From a virus: a stretch of 24,990 nt of DNA. Shown in pieces: positions 7,271 through 8,563 of this stretch; position 1 is the first letter of the stretch; every line of letters begins with the position of its first letter. A model generated the notes under the pieces. It saw only the letters and a program-made list of their open reading frames with translations. It made no database searches and was not told the DNA's origin. The stretch spans positions 1-24,990 of the IMG/VR virus record IMGVR_UViG_3300021964_000492. One strand, 5' to 3'. A program made the translations under genes and the position numbers.

Positions 7271-7278
7271 TATAAATA
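7271..7278 (+). promoter_or_regulatory. T4-type late promoter upstream of the riboswitch pair
   Basis: An exact TATAAATA lies 25 bases after the carbamoyltransferase stop. Initiation about 6-10 bases downstream would begin just before the first riboswitch at 7286, so the leader RNA would consist almost entirely of the two aptamers. A TTGACT at 7243-7248 is present but lacks a convincing -10 at the right distance. Confidence 0.75.
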
Positions 7279-7285
7279 GTTGTAT

Positions 7286-7338
7286 CGTTCATCCATATGT
7301 AAGTATGGACGGAAGTAGACTACTCGGTCGAAGGAACG
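7286..7338 (+). promoter_or_regulatory. Glutamine riboswitch, glnA/Downstream-peptide class, copy 1
   Basis: The conserved blocks CGTTCATC (7286-7293), GACGGAAGTAG and CGAAGGAACGCA match the glutamine aptamer consensus (glnA and Downstream-peptide RNA motifs). P1 pairs CGTTC 7286-7290 with GAACG 7334-7338. P2 pairs CCATA 7293-7297 with TATGG 7304-7308. P3 pairs GACT 7318-7321 with GGTC 7326-7329 around an ACTC loop, with one T-G wobble. The conserved bases lie in the junctions as expected. Copy 2 starts 62 bases downstream with different stem sequences but the same pairing. Confidence 0.88.
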
Positions 7339-7347
7339 CATTATCAT

Positions 7348-7394
7348 CGTTCATCTCGTAAGAGACGGAAGTAGGTAATGTTACCGAAGGAACG
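7348..7394 (+). promoter_or_regulatory. Glutamine riboswitch, copy 2
   Basis: The same blocks as copy 1 are present: CGTTCATC, GACGGAAGTAGG and CGAAGGAACGCA. P1 is CGTTC 7348-7352 with GAACG 7390-7394. P2 is TCTC 7354-7357 with GAGA 7362-7365 around a GTAA loop. P3 is GGTA 7374-7377 with TACC 7382-7385. P2 and P3 are completely different in sequence from copy 1 yet still pair, which is covariation support within one locus. The CACCT just after P1 (7395-7399) can pair with GGGTG (7414-7418), the end of the ribosome binding site for the downstream ORF, suggesting translational control. Confidence 0.88.
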
Positions 7395-7423
7395 CACCTA
7401 ACTGTAAAAAGGAGGGTGTTACT

Positions 7424-7531
7424 ATGACAATGTGGACTCGATATTGTCGGGAGAAAGCACAACAAGACTATCATAAGTCTCTAATGCTTAAAATCTTATT
7501 GTTACGTGCAATACACGAAACAGATAAGTAA
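7424..7531 (+). CDS. 35-aa riboswitch-controlled peptide
   Basis: ATG 7424 has a strong AAAAAGGAGGG ribosome binding site (GGAGG 7411-7415) and lies 30 bases after the second glutamine aptamer. The product begins MTMWTRYCREKAQQDYHKSL and ends in ILLLRAIHETDK. It is basic and mostly helical, with one cysteine. Glutamine riboswitches of the Downstream-peptide type characteristically precede short ORFs, and in cyanobacteria the related glnA motif controls glutamine synthetase inactivating factors, which are small basic proteins. This peptide could play such a role, but I see no clear sequence match to IF7/IF17. It is closed by a terminator hairpin. Confidence 0.75.
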   Translation: MTMWTRYCREKAQQDYHKSLMLKILLLRAIHETDK

Positions 7532-7536
7532 TCTCC

Positions 7537-7566
7537 AAGGGGGGTCTGTTATGCAGTCCCCCCTTT
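7537..7566 (+). terminator. Terminator hairpin after the riboswitch peptide
   Basis: AAGGGGGG at 7537-7544 pairs with CCCCCCTT at 7558-7565, with an extra CTG/CAG pairing inside and a short T tract after it. The very strong G-C stem separates the peptide transcript from the tmRNA promoter 7 bases further on. Confidence 0.75.
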
Positions 7567-7572
7567 CTACTA

Positions 7573-7580
7573 TATAAATA
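7573..7580 (+). promoter_or_regulatory. T4-type late promoter of the tmRNA gene
   Basis: An exact TATAAATA directly follows the terminator and lies a few bases upstream of the tmRNA acceptor segment. It gives the tmRNA its own transcription unit, under late control. Confidence 0.75.
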
Positions 7581-7645
7581 GAAATGTTCAGCGAAGCAGA
7601 CTGAAGACGGACTGGACGGGAGTGCGAATCTCCCCACCTCCACCA

Positions 7646-7657
7646 ATAAACTTCTAT
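7646..7657 (+). other. Intervening spacer of the permuted tmRNA
   Basis: Twelve A/T-rich bases lie between the encoded CCA end of the acceptor half and the first G of the coding half. In two-piece tmRNAs this loop is cut out by tRNA-type processing (RNase P at the 5' end of the coding piece, 3' trimming to CCA). It is short compared with many bacterial versions. Confidence 0.8.
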
Positions 7658-7742
7658 GGGGGTGAATTAGGTATCGACAGACGGGATAGGAAAGTGGAGA
7701 ACTGGTGCGCAAGCAACCATAATCGCAAGACTTAAAGTAACT

Positions 7743-7775
7743 GCAAACGATAACGAATTTGCACTTGCTGCCTGA
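7743..7775 (+). other. tmRNA proteolysis-tag reading frame (ANDNEFALAA)
   Basis: From the resume codon GCA at 7743 the frame reads A-N-D-N-E-F-A-L-A-A and stops at TGA 7773-7775. With the alanine brought by the charged tmRNA the added tag is AANDNEFALAA. The N-D-N core and the ALAA end match alphaproteobacterial-style tags and ClpXP signals, not the picocyanobacterial tags ending PVAA. Upstream AAAGTAACT fits the resume-codon setting region. Confidence 0.93.
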
Positions 7776-7803
7776 TTGAATTAGGTTAGCGGAGTTTTTT
7801 TGG

Positions 7804-7845
7804 GGAAGTTTTTTCTTAGCAACAGAATAAAAACTTCCTTTTTTT
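7804..7845 (+). terminator. Rho-independent terminator after the tmRNA
   Basis: GGAAGTTTTTTCT pairs with AGAATAAAAACTTCC around a short loop (7804-7838), followed by seven T (7839-7845). It ends the tmRNA transcript before the glycosyltransferase gene. Confidence 0.85.
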
Positions 7846-7876
7846 ATAGGGTGATTATTATAAAAACGAAGGAACA

Positions 7877-8563
7877 ATGAAAGTATTTGTGGGGTATGAC
7901 ACTAGAGAAGATATAGCATATCAAGTATGCAAACACAGCATTATAAGCAAACAACCCATTGCTGATGTAAAACCAATAAAACAACAAGAGTTAAGGGATT
8001 CTGGTTGGTATACACGACCAGTTGATAAGTTAGCATCAACAGAATTTACGTTTACAAGATTTTTAATTCCAGAACTCACAAACTTTGATAGTTGGGCACT
8101 ATTTATAGATTGCGATACAATTCTCACGACAGACATCAAAAAACTTTTCGATCAGGCAGACAGTCGTTATGCAGTGATGTGTGTACAGCACGATTACACA
8201 GTAAAAGAGAAGTTTAAGATGGATGGACAAAAACAGACATTCTATCCACGAAAGAACTGGTCGAGTGTTGTACTTTGGAATTGTGGACACCCTAGTAATA
8301 AGGTTTTGACTACAAATTTGATTAATGACCCCACCATAACTGGAAAGTATTTACATAGATTTGCTTGGTTAAAGAACGAGGAAATTGGAAAACTAGATCA
8401 TACATGGAATTATTTAGTTGGTATATATAATGATAGGGAAACTCCAAGTTTAATCCATTATACTGAAGGGGGTCCATGGTTTGAGAATTATAGACACTGC
8501 GAATTCCATAACGAATGGAAAGCAGAATTGCAAGATATGATGAATAAAAGGGAAATACTATGA
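7877..8563 (+). CDS. Glycosyltransferase, GT8-like (228 aa)
   Basis: The product opens MKVFVGYDTREDIAYQVCKH, a start I recognise from glycosyltransferases of T4-like marine phages. A D-x-D nucleotide-sugar/metal motif lies at 78-80 (FIDCDTIL), preceded by TRFLIPEL. LDHTWNYLVG and a terminal LIHYTEGGPWF are typical later blocks of GT8-type enzymes. The donor and acceptor are unknown; with the neighbouring carbamoyltransferase it may decorate a surface or virion glycan. AAGGAACA precedes the start and the stop overlaps the next ATG as ATGA. Confidence 0.85.
   Translation: MKVFVGYDTREDIAYQVCKHSIISKQPIADVKPIKQQELRDSGWYTRPVDKLASTEFTFTRFLIPELTNFDSWALFIDCDTILTTDIKKLFDQADSRYAVMCVQHDYTVKEKFKMDGQKQTFYPRKNWSSVVLWNCGHPSNKVLTTNLINDPTITGKYLHRFAWLKNEEIGKLDHTWNYLVGIYNDRETPSLIHYTEGGPWFENYRHCEFHNEWKAELQDMMNKREIL

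Follow-up and report, generated by a model that had tools for sequence, protein, structure and literature searches.

A T4-like phage represented in an IMG/VR virus record appears to carry its own permuted, two-piece tmRNA gene, as a sequence-only reading of the locus had proposed, and this raises the question of whether the gene is real and intact, how it came to be there and what a phage would gain from it. Here, we analyse the entire record (24,990 bases, part of a genome; referred to as the window). Phage-borne permuted tmRNAs are already published, and in marine T4-like phages they occur commonly at a single fixed position. A two-piece tmRNA, together with a glutamine riboswitch, was described in the OM43 phage Melnitz, and 53 two-piece tmRNAs were counted in phage genomes, 50 of them marine or aquatic (Buchholz et al. 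2022, PMC9004378). What we add is a conserved genomic address, a composite promoter, doubt on riboswitch control and a phage-only clade.

The gene is located at 7586-7837 on the plus strand of the window by covariance models, ARAGORN and direct reading (Table 1). The covariance-model search that the sequence-only reading had proposed returned, with cmscan, a full-length match to RF04321 (tmRNA_permuted; 7586-7775 on the plus strand, model positions 1-213 of 213) at 103.9 bits with an E value of 1.4e-19 and a gathering score of 47, as well as a match to RF01849 (alpha_tmRNA; 7545-7837, model positions 1-355, 3' part included), whose score is modest (56.5 bits against 50) and whose 5' leader portion overlaps the promoter and a hairpin. 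ARAGORN independently calls a permuted tmRNA. As claimed, the acceptor and T-arm piece precedes the tag piece, which opens with the 5' strand of the acceptor stem, and 12 bases separate the two; this intervening sequence, ATAAACTTCTAT, is expected to be removed in processing. Direct reading also bears out the seven-pair acceptor stem with its G3-U70 pair and the encoded CCA, and with the A discriminator the alanine identity set is complete. The 3' boundary has to be moved: the gene had been taken to end at 7790, whereas the RNA body extends to a 3' hairpin that ends at about 7837 and is followed by a T run, and the hairpin loop, GCAACAGAA, agrees with the RF01849 consensus 3' end. In a two-piece fold, the T arm and the acceptor stem arise without constraint; the folding energy of the whole RNA is no better than that of shuffles, which is hardly surprising for an RNA with pseudoknots, and the evidence is therefore the covariance-model score. 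A chance match and a mis-binned bacterial contig were both rejected as readings, and the gene is real and, judged from its sequence, looks intact.

Table 1. Features of the tmRNA gene, its promoter and the neighbouring riboswitch unit in the window
Feature	Position	Strand	Basis
Two tandem glutamine riboswitches (neighbour, outside tmRNA)	7284-7398	+	RF01739, 59.5 and 62.6 bits
35-aa microprotein frame under the riboswitches (neighbour, outside tmRNA)	7424-7531	+	frame with ribosome-binding site
Terminator-like hairpin closing the riboswitch/microprotein unit (neighbour)	7537-7567	+	-21 kcal/mol, z -4.9
TATAAATA, T4-type late promoter of the tmRNA, predicted +1 at 7586	7573-7580	+	motif and fixed distance among relatives
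Acceptor piece (5' helix strand, T arm, acceptor 3' strand, A discriminator, encoded CCA)	7586-7645	+	RF04321, sequence, two-piece fold, covariation
Acceptor 3' strand CACCTCC	7635-7641	+	sequence
Discriminator A	7642	+	sequence
Encoded CCA	7643-7645	+	sequence
Intervening sequence ATAAACTTCTAT, 12 nt	7646-7657	+	sequence; SAR11 spacers of about equal length
Coding piece (GGGGGTG, tag frame, 3' hairpin with loop GCAACAGAA)	7658-7837	+	RF04321, RF01849, sequence
Acceptor 5' strand GGGGGTG	7658-7664	+	sequence
Tag frame ANDNEFALAA, stop TGA at 7773-7775	7743-7775	+	sequence, ARAGORN, RF04321 alignment
3' hairpin (loop GCAACAGAA), then T7; probable intrinsic terminator	7802-7846	+	fold z -1.05, weak alone

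All acceptor pairs are intact across 80 distinct phage acceptor regions, with four different Watson-Crick combinations seen at pair 5-68 and four at pair 6-67. G3-U70 is invariant in these sequences, but positions 3 and 70 were set by the search pattern; since the patterns fixed positions 1-4, 69-72 and 7, invariance there is not independent evidence. The tag had been read correctly as ANDNEFALAA, its codons running from GCA at 7743 to GCC at 7772. ARAGORN reports a longer tag, ARLKVTANDNEFALAA, by starting this frame at a GCA further upstream, and we place the resume codon at 7743 because of homology to TGCAAACGA. Among 105 distinct phage tags, for which the final two residues are partly imposed by the filter used, Leu is found at -3 in 85, Ala at -4 in 93 and Tyr or Phe at -5 in 72. 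Phage tags retain [YF]-A-L-A-A ends, and the same ending occurs in SAR11 tags (ANESYALAA, ANDKFALAA). To judge by its sequence, the phage tag resembles a normal degradation signal, and the ending common to phage and SAR11 tags argues against a rewritten signal, not against an altered tagging rate.

The assignment to a T4-like phage is upheld by PHROG matches in the window to a gp32-type SSB (3.6e-114), a PhoH-like protein, an exonuclease, a baseplate hub, a tail tube and a DNA end protector. Relatives of the gp32 in cyanophages are about 54% identical, and the closest exonucleases belong to Phage C48C1 (the nearest, 61%) and Melnitz, both Kyanoviridae by record; no permuted tmRNA was found in Phage C48C1. 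At the nucleotide level, the complete window had zero matches among 50,697 phage records, and a distant blastn search with the tmRNA matched only 35 bp of a Maribacter phage Panino tmRNA. The window has a G+C content of 37%. An alphaproteobacterial host is a guess, if a reasonable one, because the acceptor type of the window was found mostly in Pelagibacteraceae in the bacterial pattern scan and SAR11 tmRNA spacers measure about 12 nt.

A permuted tmRNA in a T4-like phage had been called striking, a judgement that is not supported: Melnitz, the Pelagibacter (SAR11) phage HTVC008M and dozens more carry one, and pattern scans of viral contigs found at least 120 stretches with the permuted acceptor region and at least 119 combining the pattern with TATAAATA and the acceptor type of the window. 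The Melnitz gene (MZ577097, Methylophilales phage) is confirmed here at 113.4 bits, and that of HTVC008M lies at NC_020484 145161-145370, where the record has no feature. In marine T4-like phages the tmRNA is often found at one and the same address, PhoH - exonuclease - tmRNA - gp32, which Melnitz and HTVC008M also fit. The gene order kept elsewhere runs from the 1907 and 2506 proteins through PhoH, exonuclease, tmRNA and gp32 to the baseplate hub, tail tube and gp2, often on the opposite strand. In an unbiased set, 42 of the 62 listed loci with at least 2.5 kb of upstream sequence have the exonuclease ahead of the tmRNA in the same orientation, and gp32 lies downstream in 20 of the 31 listed loci with at least 4.5 kb; for the listed loci of the late-promoter set, the counts are 52 of 58 and 20 of 22. 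Behind the tmRNA of the window lies a gene for a GT8-like glycosyltransferase (7877-8563), which has 522 relatives in viral contigs, the best 80 at 77-85% identity, and is much closer to its relatives than other window proteins are to theirs. It was rejected as a linked tmRNA partner, a tmRNA being present in 0 of the 80 loci examined. Carbamoyltransferase relatives were found only as distant matches.

The comparison of phage and bacterial tmRNA sequences suggested by the sequence-only reading sets the window apart from the sampled bacteria. In a tree of 168 sequences, built on a short alignment with bacteria sampled by one acceptor pattern and mostly SAR11, the window and Melnitz fall within a phage-only set of 48 rows (99/93), and all 88 bacterial rows are placed in another set (98/93) together with two viral contigs. 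This evidence makes recent capture from the bacteria sampled here unlikely, and the phage-only clade and the conserved address point to long retention under selection; the gene appears to have descended within a marine T4-like phage lineage.

The predicted start site of TATAAATA coincides with the first base of the acceptor piece, where the RNA model also starts, in line with the late-type promoter that had been proposed for the gene. As the window contains 10 copies of TATAAATA against 2.5 expected, its exact position rather than its presence is the evidence. Among the matches listed, 42 of 111 viral contigs (38%; 0.4 expected from background) have TATAAATA at -58 to -89 relative to CTCCACCA, with most copies before phage tmRNAs at -66 to -69, whereas at bacterial loci it is found in the -58 to -89 interval in 2 of 117 and at -75 to -55 in 0 of 117. 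A sigma70 -35 box (TTGAC) lies upstream of TATAAATA in 68 of the 76 distinct promoters of this kind before phage tmRNAs, nearly always 18-19 nt ahead (a 17-18-bp spacer behind the hexamer), compared with only 13 of 93 other TATAAATA sites on the same contigs. Because of this enrichment, most TATAAATA-type phage tmRNA promoters look composite, made of a host sigma70 early and a phage late element, and readable in principle as both. In the unbiased set of 109 distinct upstream regions among the matches listed, 41 have TATAAATA, 32 of these 41 also have TTGAC, and 57 have neither. The Melnitz promoter reads TTGACA-17-TATAAATA, a composite arrangement that reconciles its published early-promoter assignment with the late motif. 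In the tmRNA promoter of the window, no TTGAC -35 box was found and a hairpin sits in its place, so that this tmRNA may be late-only; relatives with a sigma70 -35 box probably have a tmRNA that is active early too. These promoter conclusions are drawn from motifs, with predicted start sites.

Ahead of this hairpin, the window carries two glutamine riboswitches, which start 6 nt past another copy of TATAAATA (7271-7278), and a microprotein frame. No terminator was called in the region by a strict scan, and the T tail of the hairpin is short; homologous cassettes terminate in a hairpin and T6. Positions 7303-7542 of the window are 90% identical to the viral loci L150 and L176, and positions 7310-7510 are 87% identical to L130 (cassette spans: window 7284-7542, L150 2140-2384, L176 4793-5037 and L130 3431-3636). 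Beyond the cassette, similarity to the window was not detectable in the loci compared, no tmRNA was found in the three loci, and a search of the cassette against phage records gave zero matches. As the cassette is 87-90% identical between phages otherwise lacking detectable similarity at these loci, it looks mobile. The next unit beside it in all three is a freshwater-2 RNA (RF02980; L150 2004-2087 and L176 4657-4740 on the minus strand, L130 3748-3835 on the plus strand), which lies behind a TATAAATA motif and apparently leads a structural-protein-like gene. In a set of about 120 viral contigs, the glutamine riboswitches stand almost without exception before a microprotein frame of roughly 27-65 aa, belonging to several families, and for nearly all phage riboswitches fetched the short frame lies mostly 20-30 nt past the riboswitch. 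The family with the N-terminal motif M-x-x-[WYF]-x-x-[WYF]-C includes the window frame and an unannotated Melnitz frame, MTLYQQWCYLKAQKEYRRRQKILMYFRIRLKG, which is related to the window microprotein and lies downstream of the Melnitz riboswitch (46398-46589; L126 2399-2590); the record annotates an opposite-strand frame instead. We read this most simply as control of the microprotein by the riboswitch, with the riboswitch unit and the tmRNA as separate units, although read-through from the former into the latter is possible given the short T tail.

Melnitz resembles the window in being a marine T4-like phage with a permuted tmRNA of the same clade after PhoH and the exonuclease, with TATAAATA immediately before the RNA and a glutamine riboswitch and related microprotein frame nearby. 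It differs in its tag (ANDNYVPVDYALAA), in its sigma70 -35 box, in having a single riboswitch after the tmRNA rather than tandem riboswitches before it, and in a 142-nt intervening sequence that holds a reading frame, where the window has 12 nt. Intervening sequences of 103-142 nt occur in many phage permuted tmRNAs (Melnitz (L126), L187, L234, L552-L607). Most of them contain a short frame, such as MIEKFFLRFKWYRNFVEKQEKKRIKYLGL, and some frames stop inside the tmRNA coding piece (GGGGGCGAAATAG); they are putative, the sample being too small for a codon test. HTVC008M shares the permuted tmRNA and its address with the window; in contrast, its tag is ANFNEYALAA, it has no TATAAATA immediately before the tmRNA, and the tmRNA overlaps the end of the preceding frame. 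The two-piece tmRNAs of SAR11 (RF01849, RF04321) have the same permutation, G3-U70 stem, spacer of about 12 nt and ALAA degron; unlike the window gene, the genes of the bacteria have no TATAAATA at that distance, and they cluster away from the phage sequences. The one-piece tmRNAs known from phages, such as those of mycobacteriophage cluster C, are also phage-borne but are not permuted and belong to a different lineage.

We consider it probable that the window encodes an intact permuted tmRNA of a marine T4-like phage lineage that serves in ribosome rescue late in infection by means of host factors. In the proposed model, the phage late transcription complex would start the RNA near 7586, host RNase P would cut ahead of G7658 and host nucleases would expose the CCA, after which the RNA would be charged by host AlaRS and delivered by host SmpB and EF-Tu to ribosomes that have stalled on broken mRNA. 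Such a ribosome would append Ala and ANDNEFALAA, halt at UGA and be recycled, and ClpXP would clear the tagged product. No SmpB gene was found in the window record, so that host SmpB would have to serve. The phage would gain ribosomes freed late in infection, when mRNA fragments would be abundant. Counting against rescue is the need for a second copy, as the host presumably has its own tmRNA.

The phage RNA could instead act as a decoy, competing with the tmRNA of the host for SmpB or AlaRS and obstructing quality control in the host without itself rescuing ribosomes, for which there is a precedent in the tag-less tmRNA of mycobacteriophage DS6A, an inhibitor of the endogenous tmRNA (PMC11915505). 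A decoy would need no tag frame, stop codon or degron end, yet all are kept in the 105 distinct phage tags, and this maintenance of tag and acceptor makes such a role quite improbable. A main gain from degrading particular host or phage proteins or from recycling amino acids, rather than from freeing ribosomes, has been suggested for Melnitz (PMC9004378) and would fit the intact degrons of the phage tags. However, tmRNA picks its substrates by stalling alone, and with a phage degron equal to that of the host (SAR11 tags) no special targeting is visible; we regard selective proteolysis as an unlikely main function.

If the neighbouring glutamine riboswitches controlled the tmRNA, as has been stated for Melnitz, rescue would be linked to nitrogen status, and in the window both riboswitches do lie upstream on the same strand, with a T tail short enough to permit read-through. 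However, the stretch between the riboswitches and the tmRNA holds the microprotein frame, a strong hairpin and another TATAAATA, separate from that of the riboswitches; the cassette occurs without a tmRNA in L150, L176 and L130; the riboswitch follows the tmRNA in Melnitz and several contigs; and of 120 listed late-promoter tmRNA loci, the window alone has a riboswitch in the stretch searched. We therefore find such control very hard to credit. tmRNA genes are common integration sites, and the acceptor type (GGGGGTG/CACCTCC) and short spacer of the window resemble those of SAR11, as would be seen in a recently captured host gene or an integration-site remnant lacking phage function. The phage-only clade, the conserved address and the intact pairing across 80 sequences led us to reject recent host capture, no integrase was identified among the subset of window proteins scanned, and we give the capture or remnant explanation next to no weight.

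Rescue of ribosomes late in infection thus stands as the preferred reading. A fuller account, which we put forward only tentatively, is that the tmRNA is an old, phage-owned rescue gene with one address and composite early/late promoters, and that in the window lineage, where a mobile microprotein cassette that senses glutamine lies alongside, the early element has disappeared and the tmRNA has become late-only. The findings indicate that ribosome rescue is no oddity but a common and long-standing part of marine T4-like phage genomes. They call the published riboswitch control of the Melnitz tmRNA into question, with the unannotated microprotein as the more likely target, and the conserved place and promoters of the tmRNA make its timing testable in cultured phages.
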